Origin: a virus | Length of the DNA: 42,888 bases | Virus record (IMG/VR): IMGVR_UViG_3300021963_005251 | Coordinates: 1 to 42,888 of that record | Strand: one strand, 5' to 3' | Shown: positions 12,565-24,837 of the stretch, piece after piece | How positions within the stretch are numbered: the stretch's first letter is position 1 | Layout of the letters: every line of letters starts with the position of its first letter | Made by a program: the position numbers and the translations under genes | The notes under the pieces: model-generated | Database searches by the model: none | What the model saw: the letters and a program-made list of their open reading frames with translations, nothing else | Told to the model about the DNA's origin: nothing

Positions 12565-13011
12565 ATGGAACTGACACGTCGTACACTCAAACTCAAGTTG
12601 AAACCAGCTGATTTACATAACCAATGGGCTAACGAAGATCTAGTAACTCGTATGCTCCAAGTAATGCGCCAACATCAGGGCATCGGTCTTGCTGCCAACC
12701 AGGTTGGCGAAAGGATACGAGTATTTGTCATGTGCATTGATGGTCATAGTCTGGCCTGCTTCAATCCCGAAGTCGTGCAAGACTACAACGATCTAGTCGA
12801 TTTCGACGAAGGATGCTTGAGTTTTCCTGGAGAAACGTGTATAATAAAACGTCCCGATACTATTGATGTACGCTATTATAATGTAAGCGGTGTCGAAATC
12901 AGAGAAACACTTACAGGATTAGCCAGTAGATGTTTTCAACATGAACTGGATCACTTAAACGGTATTACCATGCACGATCGTTACAAGGAACAAAATGCAG
13001 AACAATCCTGA
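12565..13011 (+). CDS. def: Peptide deformylase
   Basis: This 148-residue metalloenzyme removes the formyl group from nascent proteins. All three family motifs are present: GIGLAANQVG at 39-48, EGCLSFPG at 82-89 (metal-binding Cys) and QHELDH at 125-130 (two metal-binding His and catalytic Glu). It is shorter than bacterial enzymes (about 170) because the C-terminal helix is missing, as known for other marine phage deformylases. Its 3' end overlaps the Clp ATPase gene by 17 nt. It probably speeds maturation of phage proteins late in infection. Confidence 0.93.
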   Translation: MELTRRTLKLKLKPADLHNQWANEDLVTRMLQVMRQHQGIGLAANQVGERIRVFVMCIDGHSLACFNPEVVQDYNDLVDFDEGCLSFPGETCIIKRPDTIDVRYYNVSGVEIRETLTGLASRCFQHELDHLNGITMHDRYKEQNAEQS

Positions 13012-15286
13012 AATTGAACAACTTATCGAACAGTCGGTTCGAATTGCTCGAGAACGGCAACACGAATACGTGTTGACAGAACACTTACTAATGGCCCTAC
13101 TACAACATGCACCTTTTAGGGCATGCTTGGTCAAGTTCGGAGTTGAAATAAATCATTTTGATCGAGACCTTTCCAAATACTTAGACAGCTTGACAAAACT
13201 AGTCAAGGAAGATCCCAATCTACAACCTAGAAAGACCAATGCCTTGGAGCGTGTGTTTAATCGTGCGTTGACACAAGTTCTATTTACGGGTCGCCGCACA
13301 GTGACCACAGCAGACTTGTACTTGGCCATCATGGCAGAAAGCAACAGTCATGCTCACTATTTTCTGCTCAAGTACGGTGTTACCAAGAATGAATTTGTTA
13401 AATTCTGGGACACAAACTACAATCATACTTCGGCAGGCAGCATTACCAATCAGCAAGCAGATGAAATCTTAGAAGAATACTGTACCAATCTTACCAAGTT
13501 GGCTGCAGAAGATCGCCTGGAACCTGTTATTGGTCGAGACACTGAAATTGAAGAAATGGTCACTGTGTTAGCACGCCGCTTCAAGGCCAATGTGCTAATG
13601 GTAGGCGATCCAGGTGTAGGTAAAACTGCCATTGTAGACGGGCTTGCGCAACGCATTGCTCAAAACGATGTGCCAGAATTCTTAAAAGGGCACGAAGTTT
13701 GGAGCTTGGAAATCGGATCATTGTTGGCCGGTAGTAAGTATCGCGGCGAGTTTGAAGAAAAGCTCAAAGAAGTTATCAAGGCTCTAGAAGCCAAAAAGAA
13801 CTGTGTGTTGTTTATTGACGAAGCACATACTATGAAGGGTGCTGGCGCCAGCGGTAATTCAAGCTTGGACTTTGCCAACATGATCAAGCCGTCAATCACC
13901 AAAGGCACTCTCAAGGTAGTGGCCAATACCACCTGGGAAGAATACTACGAATCGTTTGAAAAAGATCGTGCTCTTATGCGTCGTTTCTACAGACTCACAG
14001 TGGATGAGCCCGACTCAAATACCACAGAAAAGATCTTGATTGGCTTGAGTCCACGTTTAGAAAAATTTCACAATGTGCTGATTGACACTGACGCCATTGT
14101 GGCTGCGGTAGAATTGTCGGGTAGATTCATTGCTGACAAGAAAAATCCTGACAAAAGCATTGACTTACTAGATGCTGCTTGTGCTAGAGAACGTGTTAAA
14201 GATGCTGGCATGCTCACAATCACAGCAGAACTAATCCGTCAACAGGTCAGTCGAGTTACTGGTGTGCCAATGGATCGTTTGGAAAATGTTAATAGCAACA
14301 AGCTGACTGATTTGGAAACCAATATCAAACAAAAACTCTACGGTCAAGACGCAGTAGTTGATTCAGTGCTGGAGCGTGTGTACATCAGCTTTGCTGGCAT
14401 AGGCAACGAAAAACGACCCATGGCCAGTTTCTTATTCTTGGGTCCAACCGGCACAGGTAAAACTGAATTGGCCAAACTGCTGGGCCAGAATTTAGATATG
14501 ACTCTGTTGAAGTACGACATGAGCGAGTATCAAGAAAAGCATACTGTGTCCAGCTTGATTGGTGCACCTCCGGGTTATGTGGGGTTTGAAGATGGCAACG
14601 TAGGTGGCGGCAAGTTGATTAGTGACATCAGCAAAAATCCATTCAGTATCCTGCTGTTTGACGAAATCGAAAAAGCACACCCCGATGTCACCAACATCTT
14701 GTTGCAACTGTTGGACGAAGCACGTATTACCAGCAGTAATGGCAAAACTGTAGACTGTAAAAACACCATTGTTATCATGACGTCTAACTTGGGTGCTAGA
14801 GACAACGACAACAACGCCATTGGCTTTGGACAAAGCTTGGAAAAAACTGGCAGTGAAGATCGAGCAATGAAAGATTTTTTCAAGCCCGAACTACGCAATC
14901 GTATTGACCTAGTGTGCAAGTTTAATAAGTTAGATACACTATCAGTCAAGAAGGTTGTTGTCAAGTTTGTCGACGAACTCAAACAAAGTTTAACCAGCAA
15001 AAACATTCGTTTGAACTTGTCAGAATCTGCTGTTGAGTACCTAGCCGAACAAGGATACGATAGCAAAATGGGTGCAAGACCCTTGGGTCGTAAAATTGAT
15101 GAGTTGATTCGTGTGCCACTCAGTAAGCGTATCTTGTTTGACAACCTGCAAGACACCACCGTCAACGTATCGGTGGTTGATGGCAAGTTAAATTTTGACA
15201 ATCCTGTGTTTGATCACACAGAAGGTCGTCCTACTGTAGATAATAATGGATACATCGTCGTTGACCGATTTAAACCTAGAACTTAA
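12995..15286 (+). CDS. clpA: ClpA-like AAA+ unfoldase with ClpP-docking loop
   Basis: This 763-residue protein has the full ClpA architecture. It has an N-domain (about 1-145), a first AAA+ with Walker A GDPGVGKT at 204-211 and Walker B VLFIDEAH, and a second AAA+ with GPTGTGKT at 483-490 and [14 protein letters not shown]2-small domain contains [12 protein letters not shown]. There is no long ClpB coiled-coil M-domain between the ATPase modules. An IGF tripeptide at 609-611 sits where E. coli ClpA has its ClpP-binding IGL (617-619). It should therefore be able to feed substrates to host ClpP; no phage ClpP or ClpS is seen here. Confidence 0.9.
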
Positions 15287-18656: not shown

Positions 18657-21600
18657 ATGGACATCAAAGAGCTACAAGATTATCGCCTGAGCGATGCTAT
18701 TAAATTTCATAATCATCTGAACCCTAAGATATGGGGTCGTGACGAACACCTACTACCTGAAGTACGTGAAAAACTCTTGGCCATTGCTGCTGATTTCAAA
18801 GAATTCTTAGGCTTGGATTTAGAAGTAAAAGACATTACCATTAGTGGCAGCAACGCAGCTTATACCTACACAGATCACAGCGACATCGACTTACACTTGG
18901 TAGCAGACTTGCCCAAGGCTGACGCCAGCGACATTTATCGTGAACTGTTTGATGCCAAAAAATATCAGTACAACGATCAGCATAATTTCAAGATTGGCGG
19001 ATACGATGTAGAGTTGTATGTTCAAAATGCCAATGAAGATCCCAAGAGTCAAGGCATTTATAGTGTGCTTGACAACAAATGGATATCAGTTCCCAAACGC
19101 CGCAAGCCTGATGTGGATGACATTTCAGTAAAGAGCAAGTACGAAGACCTGGGCCGGCGTATTGAAGCTGCCATCCGATCTGGCAACTCAGCTCAGTTGG
19201 AAATGCTGGGCAAAAAAGTACGTGAGTTTAGACAGGCTGGACTGGACAAGACTGGCGAGTTTGGCCCAGAAAATTTAGCGTTTAAAATACTGCGCAGCAA
19301 CGGCACACTAGATCAACTACGTGCTGCACGTTTAGCAGCTAGAGATCGCGAACTCAGCATAGACGAAGCCAAGAAAAAGAAAAAGAAAAAGACACGTTAT
19401 GGCTTCGGCGGTGCATTTTTCCCCGGCTATCACTACTATGGGCAAACTGACTCTGCCGATGACGGCGGTGGCGGAGATGGCGGCGGAGAAAGTGTAAAAG
19501 AAAGTGCCGACGACATTGATGTACAACTACAGAACTTTGTAAGGTTCTGTGCTGACCGTCTTGAGCTGGAACAAATTCCGCGCATTCAAATCAAACGCGA
19601 TCCGGCCTGGAGCCGACGCAACAACAGTTTTGGTCGCTACATACCTGATGCAGATACCCTTATAGTATCTATTGCCAATCGTCATCCCTTGGATGCCATG
19701 CGTACAATGGCACATGAGCTGACACATCGCAAACAGGATGAACAAAAAGACATGCCCATTGGTGCAGGTGACACAGGCAGTGATTGGGAAAATCAAGCCA
19801 ATGCCTTGGCAGGTGTGCTCATGCGCGACTTTGCTGAACAGCATCCTGATTACTTTGCCAAAGAACCCATCTCAGAAGCTTCGGGCTACATTCCTGTCAA
19901 CAAGAAAGAAGCCGGTGATCCACGCTACAGCATGGCACTCACTGTGGATATCAAGCCCGGCGAGAATCAACGCCAAGCTGCCAAGATGGGATGGAAGACT
20001 GATCCGGCCGGCACACCTCCCACTGCCCGCACAAACGGACTTGTTGAAGCACTTACTCGTAAACTACAGCTGGTCAAAGAAGGCTTGGGTTTTCCTTTAG
20101 TCACGGAACAAGAACAAGAGCTGGAAGAAGTGGCCATGAGTCCCAGTGCCCTGCGAGCTTTTGCCAATAGCGAAGCTGCCCAAGGTATGAAAGCCGGCTT
20201 TGAAGCTGAGTTGGTGTTTACTGGACTCGGCTCCAACGAAGAAGAAGGTGAATGGGAACCTGACTACAGCTATGATCCACGTGCATATAGTCTTGATAAT
20301 ATTGAAGACTTTTTTAACTCAGGCGATTTTGCTGAGGGCATGACACGCCAAACAAAAGCAGCATTAGAGCAAGACTGGATGGAATGGTACGACGAAGCTC
20401 TATATGATGAGTTTGATGCTCCTGTTGCTGTGCGTGAATGGATTCAAGAAAACGACTGGGACGAAGAAGATCTTATTCGAAGTGCATTAGACGATGAATA
20501 CAGCGAAGACCGTGTTAAAGAAATATTAGCAGCCATGGAACGACGGGTCAAAGGCACTGGTACTGCTGCCGATGCTGACTTGGTAGAAGAATATTTGGGT
20601 GCCGAACAAGAAGTCAATCGACAGCTGGATGAACGTGTAGAGTTGGCTGTTGAAGAACAAAACAGCGACTTTGAAAGTGCTTTGGACGAATTTAGAGAAA
20701 ACTGGGACAAAGACGAAAGCGACTGGTTGCGTGATCGCGGCTGGCGAAACATGAGCGATATAGCCTACAACTTCGACGTCACATGGCCACACCTGACCAT
20801 GTCGGGCGGCAGCGGCGAAGGTGGTTTCAACGAAGAAGCAGCGCAACAACTGGCTGACAGTTTAAGTGAAACACTCGGTGTAAAAACCACTGTCAGCACC
20901 GGTTATCACGGTGCTACTCGCGATACAAGTACTTGGATTTTTGAACCTGATGGCAGCTTGGATGCTGACGACGATGAAAACATGCCAGTGGAGATTGTGA
21001 GCCCTCCCATGCCCTTAGCAAAAACACTGGAAATCCTGCCCAAGTTTTTTGAGTGGGCCGAAGACAACGGTGCCTATGCCAATAGCTCCACTGGATTCCA
21101 CATGAGTGTCAGCATGCCTGAGCACGAAGGAAACATGCTGGACTACACAAAACTGGCCCTGTTCTTGGGCGATGAATATGTGTTGAAACAGTTCGGTCGC
21201 GAAGCCAATACCTACGCCAAGAGTGCCCTACAAAAAATACGCGAAAAGAAGGGCAAGGTTGATGCTGAGACTGTTATGTCTGCCATGCGCAAGCATTTGG
21301 ATCAGTTTGCTTCACGTGCCTTGGCGCAGCCATCGGGATTTGGCAAATACACCAGTATCAATCCCAAGAGCAAATACATTGAATTCCGCTCAGCCGGCGG
21401 CAGCAACTATTTTGAAGACATGGATCGAATCCAAAATACCTTGATGCGTTATGCTCAGGCCATGAACATTGCCATGGATCCCGCAGCTGACAAACCTGAA
21501 TATGCCAAGAAGCTGTACAAGATGCTGAGCGATGTCAAAACACAAGAGATCACAGACCCCCGGACTGGTACCAAACGTACAGAAGTTGTTTCCGGCCTTG

Positions 21601-22388
21601 ACAGTGATGCTATTGCTGTATTCAGTCGTTTTGTAGCCGGTGAGTTACCCAAGTCAGAACTCAAAGGCTTTATTAAAAAGATACAGTACGGTCGCGAAGT
21701 GGCAAAAAATCCACCTAAAAAGATTCAGTGGAAGGTAACTCATCCCAACCGCAGTTCCACAATCACACTCATGGCCTCATCAGCAGAAGAAGCTATTAAA
21801 CTGGCCAAACAAGAGTACAACGATACCATGAATCCCGACGATGCTTATCGTGCAGAACCTGTTGCACCTGCAACACAGACCCCACAGACTGATCAAACAA
21901 CAGCACCAGCTGCAGATGATCCCGCTGGCAACTATGTGTTGCGTCGCAGAGAAGGCAACGCAGCTACCGGCCCAGTGTTGTATAGATTTCATGCTGCCAA
22001 CAACATGGCAGCTATTGAAGCATCTCGTCAGTGGACCACTGCTCGTGGCCTGGAGAGACGGTCAGTGTGGTTGGATCATGTATCGGGTGTGCCGACAGAA
22101 GTCCTGAACGCAAGACCTGTACAGGCCACGTTAGGTGAACCTCGTCCAGCATTTACTGAGCCACGGTCCAGCTCTATCCCCGAAGTGCCACTTGACATAG
22201 CACAGAACTTTCCGCAGCTGGCCGGCGAATTCTCCGGTGAGTGGAAGGTGGTAGATGGTTTGAATCGAGAAGTTCACAGATTTGGTGGCATTGGCAACAG
22301 TCAAGCAGATGCCAACCGAGTAGCACGTGAATGGGCACAACGAACTGGGTTTGATGGCAACTTAGAAGTATATCCGGTGATGAGATAA
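18657..22388 (+). CDS. Multidomain protein: nucleotidyltransferase, HExxH, amidoligase
   Basis: This 1243-residue protein has a pol-beta-like nucleotidyltransferase region (GSNAAYTYTDHSDIDLHL, 64-81, with D76/D78). A KKKKKKK linker and a Gly/Asp-rich stretch follow at 239-280. HELTH at 353-357 lies in an alpha-helical metallopeptidase-like setting. A linker with DPRYSMALTVDIKPG comes next, then an amidoligase-type ATP-grasp relative spanning about 505-960 (GFEAEL 514, EIVSPPM 779, TGFHMSV 812, YIEFRS 907). Three small repeats form the C-terminus (1025-1050, 1092-1130, 1196-1235). Domain borders carry SIDE-A (237), PISE-A (407) and LVE-A (464), which fit the T4 prohead protease rule (L/I)-x-E. 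A packaged polyprotein is inferred. Confidence 0.75.
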   Translation: MDIKELQDYRLSDAIKFHNHLNPKIWGRDEHLLPEVREKLLAIAADFKEFLGLDLEVKDITISGSNAAYTYTDHSDIDLHLVADLPKADASDIYRELFDAKKYQYNDQHNFKIGGYDVELYVQNANEDPKSQGIYSVLDNKWISVPKRRKPDVDDISVKSKYEDLGRRIEAAIRSGNSAQLEMLGKKVREFRQAGLDKTGEFGPENLAFKILRSNGTLDQLRAARLAARDRELSIDEAKKKKKKKTRYGFGGAFFPGYHYYGQTDSADDGGGGDGGGESVKESADDIDVQLQNFVRFCADRLELEQIPRIQIKRDPAWSRRNNSFGRYIPDADTLIVSIANRHPLDAMRTMAHELTHRKQDEQKDMPIGAGDTGSDWENQANALAGVLMRDFAEQHPDYFAKEPISEASGYIPVNKKEAGDPRYSMALTVDIKPGENQRQAAKMGWKTDPAGTPPTARTNGLVEALTRKLQLVKEGLGFPLVTEQEQELEEVAMSPSALRAFANSEAAQGMKAGFEAELVFTGLGSNEEEGEWEPDYSYDPRAYSLDNIEDFFNSGDFAEGMTRQTKAALEQDWMEWYDEALYDEFDAPVAVREWIQENDWDEEDLIRSALDDEYSEDRVKEILAAMERRVKGTGTAADADLVEEYLGAEQEVNRQLDERVELAVEEQNSDFESALDEFRENWDKDESDWLRDRGWRNMSDIAYNFDVTWPHLTMSGGSGEGGFNEEAAQQLADSLSETLGVKTTVSTGYHGATRDTSTWIFEPDGSLDADDDENMPVEIVSPPMPLAKTLEILPKFFEWAEDNGAYANSSTGFHMSVSMPEHEGNMLDYTKLALFLGDEYVLKQFGREANTYAKSALQKIREKKGKVDAETVMSAMRKHLDQFASRALAQPSGFGKYTSINPKSKYIEFRSAGGSNYFEDMDRIQNTLMRYAQAMNIAMDPAADKPEYAKKLYKMLSDVKTQEITDPRTGTKRTEVVSGLDSDAIAVFSRFVAGELPKSELKGFIKKIQYGREVAKNPPKKIQWKVTHPNRSSTITLMASSAEEAIKLAKQEYNDTMNPDDAYRAEPVAPATQTPQTDQTTAPAADDPAGNYVLRRREGNAATGPVLYRFHAANNMAAIEASRQWTTARGLERRSVWLDHVSGVPTEVLNARPVQATLGEPRPAFTEPRSSSIPEVPLDIAQNFPQLAGEFSGEWKVVDGLNREVHRFGGIGNSQADANRVAREWAQRTGFDGNLEVYPVMR

Positions 22389-22446: not shown

Positions 22447-23355
22447 ATGTCAACATATCAATTTACCCCTGATGGGCGTAGAATAATCCCCAAACTGGAA
22501 TTTTACATCACCAATGTTTGCAATCTCACCTGTCAAGGTTGCAACAGATTCAACGACATGCACTTTCGCGGTTGGCAAAGATTCAGCGACTATGCTGATG
22601 TCATTGCCGAATGGGGCAAAAAAATCACAGTGGATCACACTGTGATCATGGGCGGCGAGCCCTTGTTGAATCCCACCATATGCGATTGGTTGCGTGGCCT
22701 GCGCAAGATCAGCATGTACGGTCCGCAAATCATGAGCAACGGCACCTATATTGATCGTGTGGATGGACTTTACGAAACACTAAGAGAAACGCACAGTTGG
22801 ATCGGAGTAAGTCTACACCATCGCAACGATGCTGACGAAATATACGAACGTATTAGAAACTTCTATCCTGCTGCCAGCCGTGTGGTTGAAGTGGAGGGCA
22901 GAGAAAACACTCGCAGTGGCAGCATTAGATCATTCACCGATCAAAACAACATCTGGATAGAAGTTTGGAATCAAACTGATTTTGTAAAAAATGCTGTGAG
23001 ATATACCGCAGAGGGCCGCCCAACTTTACACAACAACACCCCTGAATCGGCCTTTGTAACCTGTGCTTTTGCCCATAACAAAAACTATCACTTTATACGA
23101 GGAAAACTGTATCGCTGTGGACCAGTTGGCCTGTTCCCTGAATTAGATGATCAGTTTGATTTGGATTTGTCGCCCGAAGACAAAGCTTTAATCAGATCTT
23201 ATCGCCCGTTGTCGGTAGAAAACTACGACGCAGAACATGAATCGTTTTTTGACCATATAGACGACATGATACCGCAATGCAAGTTCTGCTGCAACGACGA
23301 TACTAAACATCCATTAGAATTCCGCCCCAAGAAGACTCGAGTCAATTTGGAGTAA
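22447..23355 (+). CDS. Radical SAM enzyme with extra cysteine cluster
   Basis: This 302-residue protein has the radical SAM signature CNLTCQGC (C25, C29, C32), which binds the 4Fe-4S cluster used to cleave S-adenosylmethionine. It has a GGEP motif at 69-72 for SAM binding. Later cysteines (TCAF, YRCGP, PQCKFCC) could hold an auxiliary SPASM/twitch-type cluster. It is not QueE-like, since QueE has a different, shorter fold and context. The substrate is unknown; SPASM relatives modify peptides or sugars. It lies directly after the large multidomain gene and before the MRAxEFIxE genes, so peptide modification is an attractive but unproved idea. Confidence 0.8.
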   Translation: MSTYQFTPDGRRIIPKLEFYITNVCNLTCQGCNRFNDMHFRGWQRFSDYADVIAEWGKKITVDHTVIMGGEPLLNPTICDWLRGLRKISMYGPQIMSNGTYIDRVDGLYETLRETHSWIGVSLHHRNDADEIYERIRNFYPAASRVVEVEGRENTRSGSIRSFTDQNNIWIEVWNQTDFVKNAVRYTAEGRPTLHNNTPESAFVTCAFAHNKNYHFIRGKLYRCGPVGLFPELDDQFDLDLSPEDKALIRSYRPLSVENYDAEHESFFDHIDDMIPQCKFCCNDDTKHPLEFRPKKTRVNLE

Positions 23356-23363: not shown

Positions 23364-23564
23364 ATGAGAGCCCACGAATTCATACAAGAAAATTTTGCAG
23401 ATGGCCGGGTCAAAGGCAAGAGTCGTCCTGGGCGTGTAAAACGTGCCGGTGCCAGCTGTACAGGATCAGTGACCAGTCTGCGTAAACGTGCCAAAAATTC
23501 ATCAGGTGAACGTGCCAAGATGTATCATTGGTGTGCCAACATGAAGTCAGGAAAGCGGAAATGA
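23364..23564 (+). CDS. Small basic protein with capsid-targeting-like N-terminus
   Basis: This 66-residue protein begins MRAHEFIQEN, very close in pattern to the T4 internal-protein capsid-targeting sequence MKTYQEFIAE, with I-Q-E at the expected cleavage point. The remainder is strongly basic (RPGRVKRAGASC, VTSLRKRAKNSSGERAKM, HWCANMKSGKRK). It matches a small protein family I recall from many marine phages. DNA binding inside the capsid is a reasonable inference. Its stop overlaps the next start (ATGA). Confidence 0.7.
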   Translation: MRAHEFIQENFADGRVKGKSRPGRVKRAGASCTGSVTSLRKRAKNSSGERAKMYHWCANMKSGKRK

Positions 23565-24175
23565 GAGCCGCAGAACTGACAGAATACAGTGTCACTGACA
23601 AAAAGATTGAACGGATCCTGGCCAAAAAGGGTTATAAAAAGTTAGGTGCTGGTGTTGACCAAACTGCTTATTTGGAACCCGGTACTGGATATGTGCTAAA
23701 GGTGTTTGGCACACAAGGCGGCGAATCATTTAGTCCCGATCATAAAATGTTTTTTGCTTGGGCCAAGTACTGTATGAAAAACAGCAACAACCCATTTTTA
23801 CCCCGGTTCGGCGGCTACGACAGTTTTGTGTTGGATAGCGATCGCTATTTACAAATACGTCAAGAACCCTTGCAACCAGCTGGACGCATGGGAGTTATAC
23901 TAGAAATAATGGCCAGTGCTGTTGAAGATGAAAATATCGCAGATTTAGATGAGCTGTCTGATTATGTTGAAGATTATTTCCCAGGCTATGCTGCTGGTTA
24001 TCAGAAACTGCTAAAACAACTAGGACCAAAACAAATGCAGTTGATGTTGGGCACTATAAATCGTCTATACGACATTGGTAATCAAAAAGGTTGGGGTTTT
24101 GACCTACATGCTGGTAACTTTATGCGGCGTGCTGATGGTACTCCGGTTATCGTAGACCCTTGGGTTGTAAACTAA
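23561..24175 (+). CDS. Protein-kinase-like enzyme with (L/I)xE N-terminus
   Basis: This 204-residue protein has a kinase-like layout. A glycine-rich loop (LGAGVDQTAY, 28-37) is followed by a VLKVFG strand with lysine 47. The catalytic loop is DLHAGN with D181 and N186, and a VDPW motif carries D199. The D-to-N distance of 5 and N-to-D distance of 13 equal those of PKA (D166, N171, D184). It is compact compared with eukaryotic-type kinases (about 250) and could be a protein kinase or a small-molecule phosphotransferase. The N-terminus MRAAELTEY contains L-T-E, a possible prohead-protease site. I chose the ATG at 23561 because it gives the ATGA overlap. Confidence 0.7.
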   Translation: MRAAELTEYSVTDKKIERILAKKGYKKLGAGVDQTAYLEPGTGYVLKVFGTQGGESFSPDHKMFFAWAKYCMKNSNNPFLPRFGGYDSFVLDSDRYLQIRQEPLQPAGRMGVILEIMASAVEDENIADLDELSDYVEDYFPGYAAGYQKLLKQLGPKQMQLMLGTINRLYDIGNQKGWGFDLHAGNFMRRADGTPVIVDPWVVN

Positions 24176-24178
24176 ATA
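24173..24178 (+). promoter_or_regulatory. TAAATA motif fused to stop codon, 4 nt before ATG
   Basis: TAAATA begins with the TAA stop of the kinase-like gene and is followed after 4 nt by the next ATG. No Shine-Dalgarno. Confidence 0.4.
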
Positions 24179-24182
24179 TAAC

Positions 24183-24386
24183 ATGCGACTCTCCGAAATA
24201 TCCCTGCCCAAAACCAAGATGAAAACCTACCTTGTTAGGTTAAAACTCAAGAGCATTGGTTACACTCAAATACTCGACACCACTGTTCAAGCTGTGAGTC
24301 CGCAAATGGCTCGAAAAATCATTGCCACGCAATACAACAGCACACATGTCCTAATTGGACAACCACGCGAAATCAAGCCACGCTAA
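24183..24386 (+). CDS. Small basic phage protein
   Basis: This 67-residue basic protein begins MRLSEISLPKTKMKTYLVRL. The rest predicts a beta-alpha-beta fold (VRLKLKSIGYTQILDTTVQA, then VSPQMARKIIATQYN). L-S-E at residues 3-5 could be a prohead-protease site, though this N-terminus is the least like the MRAxEFIxE pattern. It sits between the kinase-like gene and a GTG-start gene, both joined to it by TAAATA junctions. Function unknown. Confidence 0.55.
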   Translation: MRLSEISLPKTKMKTYLVRLKLKSIGYTQILDTTVQAVSPQMARKIIATQYNSTHVLIGQPREIKPR

Positions 24387-24389
24387 ATA
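24384..24389 (+). promoter_or_regulatory. TAAATA motif fused to stop codon, 4 nt before GTG
   Basis: TAAATA starts with the TAA stop of the preceding gene and the next start codon, GTG, follows after 4 nt. The same junction as before two neighbouring genes supports the GTG as the true start. Confidence 0.4.
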
Positions 24390-24393
24390 CAGC

Positions 24394-24684
24394 GTGAACA
24401 CAAAATTCGTCAAAGTCTCGTTTGATATACACTGTAAGAACAAAAATGGCCTGATGCCTGCTTACCGTGTGTATGTCAACGACGAGCTGTTTGCTGAACG
24501 TACTTGGATTTGGAAAAATCATTATCTGGAAGAAATGCTGCAAATCGCAGCTGAACCTGGTGAATATCATGTGCGGCTGGAAGCAGTCAAACCCTGGGGC
24601 GGAAAGTTCAAAGCTTCAAACGTTCGGGTTGAGCATGGTGACGCACGTTGGCACGACACAAACATATTGGAAATACTACCATGA
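24394..24684 (+). CDS. Conserved beta-sandwich-like phage protein (GTG start)
   Basis: This 96-residue protein is rich in beta strands: FVKVSFDIHCKNKNG, YRVYVNDELFAERTWIWKNH and EMLQIAAEPGEYHVRLEAV. It resembles an Ig-like or carbohydrate-binding fold and belongs to a family I recall in marine phages. I place the start at GTG 24394 because the in-frame ATG upstream (24355) lies inside the previous gene. The GTG also follows a TAAATA junction like those of its neighbours. It overlaps the next gene by 4 nt (ATGA). Function unknown. Confidence 0.6.
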   Translation: MNTKFVKVSFDIHCKNKNGLMPAYRVYVNDELFAERTWIWKNHYLEEMLQIAAEPGEYHVRLEAVKPWGGKFKASNVRVEHGDARWHDTNILEILP

Positions 24685-24836
24685 GAGCTAGAGAGTTTAT
24701 CAAGGAAAATGCATCAGCAGGTGCCACTAGTACAGGTAGTATTGCTGTAGTAGCACAGCCTACGGGCCAGGTAATTACTCGTACACAAAATCGTCGACCT
24801 GGTAAATATAAAAACAGTTTAACACGGACCAAATAA
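24681..24836 (+). CDS. 51-residue protein with capsid-targeting-like N-terminus
   Basis: The protein begins MRAREFIKEN, again matching the MRAxEFIxE pattern with I-K-E before the predicted cut. The remaining 41 residues are Ser/Thr/Gly-rich then basic (TRTQNRRPGKYKNSLTRTK), typical of a short disordered DNA-binding tail. Start chosen by the ATGA overlap with the upstream gene. It ends 1 nt before the dps ATG. Confidence 0.65.
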   Translation: MRAREFIKENASAGATSTGSIAVVAQPTGQVITRTQNRRPGKYKNSLTRTK

Positions 24837-24837
24837 C

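Follow-up and report, generated by a model that had tools for sequence, protein, structure and literature searches.

A compact, predicted gp0.7-type kinase with a T4-type capsid-targeting-like tag

Introduction

The protein kinase gp0.7 of phage T7 is made early after infection as an untagged protein of 359 aa with a C-terminal basic shutoff domain. Its homologue JSS1_004, whose kinase domain is 54% similar to gp0.7, inactivates DndFGH through phosphorylation and phosphorylates further defense proteins as well (PMC12345140). The gp0.7/JSS1_004 kinase has been described as almost exclusive to the Autographiviridae and as blunting several antiviral systems (PMC12345140).

In T4, the internal proteins IPI, IPII, and IPIII share an N-terminal capsid-targeting/protease motif with Alt, an enzyme that enters the cell along with the DNA and modifies the host; IPII and IPIII start with MKTYQEFIAE, and Alt starts with MELITELFDE. 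Residues 1–10 of IPIII suffice for packaging, cargo fused to this tag is delivered into the cell, and the prohead protease gp21 cuts after the motif L/I-X-E (PMC9026906). IPI, one of the tagged proteins, has an anti-restriction function (PMC9026906).

The proposal that minimal phage kinases are injected dates from 2017 (PMC5512222). Iyer and colleagues described polyvalent-protein kinases that lack the C-terminal subdomain and discussed their co-delivery with DNA, citing the T7 kinase as a precedent (PMC5512222). The family Kinase-PolyVal (PF18762) was reported chiefly in prophages of Verrucomicrobia-Chlamydia and Bacteroidetes (PMC5512222).

Here we analyze a stretch of 42,888 nucleotides (the window), a 42.9-kb virus fragment with T4-type replication genes, among them a clamp loader (E 2.3e-75) and a DNA polymerase (E 5.5e-190). 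A preliminary description had pointed to a kinase-like protein within a putative injected set of gene products. We find that this protein is related to the gp0.7 kinase. By comparison with gp0.7, it consists of the kinase domain alone (204 aa) behind a capsid-targeting-like tag, and the family lies on many T4-type and jumbo phage contigs. In the literature searched, which lay largely outside subscription journals, we found no description of a gp0.7-type kinase with such a tag.

Results

The gene and its immediate surroundings. The kinase gene is an open frame (Table 1), and its relatives are 35–70% identical to it over the full length. Between the window kinase and the relative L007, dN/dS is ∼0.16–0.19; the gene is under purifying selection. 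On the opposite strand, the frame that was checked has stops throughout. The start codon overlaps the stop of the upstream tagged gene in the sequence ATGA (23561–23564). Since the same 4-base overlap recurs in L005 and L007, as judged from ORF coordinates, the kinase and the preceding tagged gene look translationally coupled. The window shows no enrichment of T4-type late promoters (TATAAATA), with none close to the kinase gene, and its sigma-70-like sites occur at chance level.

Table 1. Features of the kinase gene and of its neighbors in the window
Feature	Coordinates	Strand	Basis or remark
1243-aa multidomain protein	18657..22388	+	phrog_36119 E 1.1e-41; Amidoligase_2 E 3.2e-9
Tagged neighbor MRAHEFIQE, 66-aa basic protein	23364..23564	+	Tag pattern
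Shine-Dalgarno-like AGGAAAG	23549..23555	+	Sequence
CDS of compact kinase, 204 aa	23561..24175	+	ATG start, TAA stop, open frame
Tag MRAAELTE, capsid-targeting-like, with a terminal (L/I)-x-E motif for the prohead protease	23561..23584	+	Predicted cut after E8
Glycine-rich loop G29-A-G31	23645..23653	+	G31 in 66/66 and G29 in 58/66 domains; between model strands 26–30 and 34–38
K47 codon, beta-3 lysine	23699..23701	+	65/66 related domains; within strand 45–49
D181 codon, catalytic-loop aspartate, motif DLHxGN	24101..24103	+	66/66 (biased, see text)
N186 codon, metal-binding asparagine	24116..24118	+	66/66 (biased, see text)
D199-P200 codons, equivalent to DFG start	24155..24160	+	66/66; protein ends 4 residues further
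Tagged neighbor MRAREFIKE, 51 aa	24681..24836	+	Tag pattern
Tagged neighbor MRIKNLIEG, 535 aa	25278..26885	+	Tag pattern; phrog_727 and others, function not known
Tagged neighbor MRAQEFISE, 240 aa	26882..27604	+	Tag pattern
Possible tagged neighbor MRNFIDLLE, 136 aa	27949..28359	+	Looser pattern only

Relationship to the T7 kinase. Searched against PHROGs, the window protein matches phrog_15752, the T7 gp0.7 kinase, with E 1.9e-7; so do 11 of the 14 close members (best E 3.1e-14), and the match is present in all 12 contigs tested. A direct comparison of the family profile with T7 gp0.7 (hhalign) gives E 1.6e-6. In cultured phages, tblastn with the window protein found nothing at E 0.01 and weak matches up to E 10. 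Distant members bridge this gap: the family leads to L062, and L062 leads by tblastn to kinases of T7-like phages, with E down to 8e-10. The preliminary description had named gp0.7 as a relevant kinase, and gp0.7 turned out to be the relative by profile, hhalign, residue conservation, and predicted structure. Judged from these comparisons, the window protein is related to the gp0.7 kinase domain and is no gp0.7 orthologue.

Alignment-based searches of IMG/VR found 17 and then 83 stretches that encode the family, on contigs of up to 578 kb. No relative was found in the bacterial and archaeal genome collection, which makes a host-derived gene unlikely. Pfam and NCBIfam hold no match to the window kinase, and searches of PDB sequences by phmmer and with the family profile returned chance-level matches only; the kinase link therefore comes from PHROGs, profile comparison, fold, and conservation.

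Predicted structure. The preliminary description had proposed structure prediction with a fold search, taking the lack of a kinase fold as grounds for rejection, and the predicted structure does show a kinase fold. The AlphaFold2 model has a pLDDT of 89.4 and a pTM of 0.84, with pLDDT below 50 at residues 1–9. Its elements, named by us, follow the order beta1-beta2-beta3(K47)-alphaC-beta4-beta5-hinge-alphaD-alphaE-catalytic loop-beta7-beta8-D199, so the predicted model contains the N-lobe and the catalytic core of a kinase. The Foldseek matches listed from the PDB are all protein kinases, pseudokinases, or kinase-like domains (best E 4.4e-5, TMq 0.29–0.46), and VIA-align against PDB kinases reaches Z 9.6 (3.9 Å over 144 residues). 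These scores are modest because the C-lobe is short. Matches to the viral models of BFVD are stronger and include kinases of T7-like phages: the protein kinase of Enterobacter phage IME278 matches at TMq 0.69 (E 9.7e-9), and the same TMq is reached by proteins of uncultured phages, among them one whose annotation includes an acetyltransferase domain.

Catalytic residues. The kinase residues G29, G31, K47, D181, N186, and D199 are all present. As originally noticed, the distances from D181 to N186 (5) and from N186 to D199 (13) are identical to those of D166, N171, and D184 in PKA, and the glycine-rich loop and K47 are likewise in place. By itself this spacing would not be significant. The weight of the assignment as a predicted kinase lies in the gp0.7 profile match, the kinase-fold model with its PDB matches, and the conservation of residues. 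The alignment of the 14 close members spans their entire length and shows G31, K47, D181, H183, and N186 to be invariant. The first alignment-based fetch picked its members by patterns that lie away from the catalytic loop; that D181 and N186 are conserved among them is therefore not a result of how they were picked. In a broader set of 66 domains, which includes T7 and Klebsiella phage rows that have the K, D, N, and D-P, conservation is free of bias only at K47, D199, and P200, because D181 and N186 served to locate the domains.

By comparison with PKA, PknB, and TTK, the window kinase shares the N-lobe, the hinge, the catalytic loop, and the D/N/D spacing, whereas the activation segment, alphaF to alphaI, the histidine and arginine of HRD, and the DFG motif are missing. 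The chain ends 5 residues past D199, so that the lower C-lobe is absent, a point that the preliminary description had missed. The glycine loop reads G-A-G-V-D-Q and has no third glycine; G-F-D181 stands where HRD would be; and DFG is replaced by D-P-W, in which the proline is invariant and common to gp0.7. The position of the alphaC glutamate, assigned by alignment and not from solved-structure coordinates, is usually something else across the family: Q in 25, D in 21, H in 5, and E in only 4 of the 66 domains, with H61 in the window kinase. The window protein is thus a minimal, incomplete kinase rather than a PKA-like one. With T7 gp0.7 and JSS1_004 it has in common a homologous kinase domain, a DxHxGNxM catalytic loop, DP for DFG, and a short C-lobe, and the deviations set the gp0.7-type family apart from eukaryotic-type kinases.

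The N-terminal tag. The kinase gene belongs to a series of genes that encode proteins with the N-terminus M-R-x-x-E-F-I-x-E or a close variant of it. On the plus strand of the window, 5 strict tag starts are observed against 0.05 expected from residue shuffling. Four of them cluster at 23364–28000, and the remaining one (37532) is probably due to chance; as an observation on the N-termini, the putative injected set is borne out. The tag of the kinase itself has one residue fewer than the typical MRAxEFIxE and fits the looser pattern only.

The same kind of start recurs in the relatives. In the tree, the window kinase belongs to a clade of 30 domains, of which 27 are stand-alone proteins, all with a tag-like start, and the other 3 are fusions (L037, L038, and L043). 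A strict (L/I)-x-E ends at residue 8 or 9 in 23 of the 27 stand-alone members, compared with 3.9% at control positions; the binomial value of 6e-29 for this enrichment is overstated, since the clade sequences are related and not independent. Strict (L/I)-x-E is absent from residues 6–11 in L012, L013, L018, and L040. Outside the clade, T7 gp0.7, the Munch kinase, and many distant members have no tag. The strict pattern is absent from the cultured relatives R16F, Astolliot, RHph_I1_18, DSS3_VP1, and Munch; the R16F kinase starts with MRLNELFKDE.

At the DNA level, 25 sites in 14 family records match the tag pattern, and the reversed control has 0; at least one of these sites (MNDIEFIEE, G005) is probably due to chance. 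With the tag removed, 94 tagged ORFs from the window and 25 related loci fall into 21 single-linkage body groups, one large group being a merger through shared modules. That proteins with unrelated bodies retain one kind of N-terminus suggests a common trafficking signal. The gp21-type prohead protease (PF03420) scores above the cut-off in 6 of the 9 contigs searched for it, including that of the close relative L007; it has no match in the 42.9-kb window record, which is a fragment, nor in contigs of 354 kb and 144 kb. At the level of the sequence motif, MRAAELTE qualifies as a capsid-targeting tag with an (L/I)-x-E site, and the putative injection of the kinase is also well supported.

Neighboring genes and fusions. 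The kinase has a radical-SAM gene on one side and a Dps/ferritin gene on the other. The radical-SAM protein (22447–23355) is directly upstream of the tagged run. The Dps/ferritin-like protein (24838–25281) lies inside the run and is untagged, with the 51-aa tagged ORF before it. The 1243-aa protein farther upstream has a nucleotidyltransferase-like N-terminus (phrog_36119) and a zinc-peptidase-like motif, AHELTHRKQ, and resembles polyvalent proteins. Elsewhere in the window, at 12995–15286, a 763-aa phage ATP-dependent protease (phrog_4871, E 2.9e-241) is encoded downstream of a peptide deformylase.

In some relatives, the kinase is part of a protein of more than 1000 residues (L037, L038, L046, and L048). 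The fusions in L037, L038, and L046 start with the nucleotidyltransferase-like module of the 1243-aa neighbor, and two proteins (L046:3580–7242 and L048:1–3750) each contain two gp0.7-type kinase domains of differing subfamilies. L053 is an acetyltransferase-kinase fusion, and further tagged proteins near kinases match acetyltransferases. A tagged ORF adjoining the kinase in L058 (6636–7055) matches ART-PolyVal just under the cut-off (E 4.4e-6). A tagged set of protein-modifying enzymes would fit a role in host takeover. The ADP-ribosyltransferase-like ORF of L058 also recalls T4 Alt.

Discussion

We propose that the window protein is a minimal gp0.7-type kinase, synthesized as a preprotein bearing a T4-type tag, that is packaged, cleaved, and injected and then phosphorylates host or defense proteins; we hold this reading to be somewhat probable. 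In this mechanism, the capsid-targeting tag would recruit the kinase preprotein to the prohead core, where a gp21-type prohead protease would cut past E8, between LTE and Y. The mature enzyme of ∼196 residues would stay in the head with the DNA, would be ejected into the cell along with it, and could phosphorylate host proteins ahead of any phage gene expression. By analogy with gp0.7 and JSS1_004, its targets would probably be proteins of transcription, RNA processing, or antiviral defense. Defense and transcription targets are plausible, given what JSS1_004 does to DndFGH and other defense proteins and given the anti-restriction function of IPI. The original idea of a kinase delivered with the genome has thus gained on both sides: profile, fold, and residues bear out a predicted kinase, and the T4-type tag, together with the protease encoded in relatives, suggests delivery.

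The same evidence bears on other explanations. The protein could be an active gp0.7-type kinase that works only when newly made in the cell, its tag being unused for packaging or a mere interaction motif. Its best-studied relatives, T7 gp0.7 and JSS1_004, are indeed early-expressed, and gp0.7 and many distant members do without a tag. However, the tag stands on many unrelated bodies, is strongly enriched in the clade, and goes with a T4-type protease in relatives, and we judge exclusive action after synthesis to be unlikely. The catalytic loop raises another question, since DLHxGN resembles that of APH-type enzymes. A small-molecule kinase of the aminoglycoside-phosphotransferase or choline-kinase kind (D-L-H-x-G-N) would modify a metabolite or an antibiotic-like compound, and one weak PDB profile match does align the loop with chain 2pyw (E 0.62). 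Yet the motif also occurs, as FDMHSGN, in T7 gp0.7, which has been tested as a protein kinase, the top fold matches are protein kinases, including those of phages, and Pfam gives no APH match; a small-molecule substrate appears very unlikely.

A further alternative is a pseudokinase with a structural or scaffolding role inside the head. The noncanonical alphaC position, the DP in place of DFG, and the missing lower C-lobe would all suit a protein without activity, and a part in assembling the head has been suggested for T4 IPIII (PMC9026906). The deviations are nevertheless no argument for a dead enzyme, because gp0.7 has DP too and its homologue JSS1_004 is active. Moreover, K47, D181, N186, and D199 are kept in 65–66 of the 66 domains despite low overall identity, as catalysis predicts, with the bias noted above at D181 and N186. 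We consider a purely structural role highly improbable.

The proposed packaged kinase invites comparison with known delivered proteins. Packaging, suggested by the tag, would liken it to T4 Alt, but its body is a kinase and neither an ADP-ribosyltransferase nor a small basic protein, as in the T4 internal proteins. Like Kinase-PolyVal, it would be a phage kinase that has lost the C-terminal subdomain, has kept the active site, and is predicted to be co-delivered with DNA, and some of its relatives are likewise fused into multidomain proteins. In contrast to Kinase-PolyVal, the window kinase falls below the Pfam model, is closest to gp0.7, stands alone, is tagged, and occurs in T4-type phages. 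Membership in PF18762 was rejected: the window has no match, and distant relatives have sub-threshold matches only.

More broadly, T4-type and jumbo phages may have made a takeover kinase of the T7 type into an effector that the virion delivers, a proposal on which our judgment is evenly balanced. Such kinases would then reach the host by two routes: T7-like phages have them newly synthesized, and T4-type and jumbo phages would package them in the capsid and release them by proteolysis, the latter as part of a large modular tagged set (kinase, acetyltransferase, and perhaps ADP-ribosyltransferase) that would hit the host before expression begins. If this is true, T4-type and jumbo phages could phosphorylate host and defense proteins at DNA entry, when restriction-type defenses act. 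The N-terminal tag would also offer a simple, sequence-based way to list the candidate injected effectors of a phage.

Finally, several contigs of the family (L052, L057, L061, L065–L068, and L070) encode, in addition to the matched ORF, others with a kinase-like YYxYLIEKL stretch, which looks like a multiplication of the gene.
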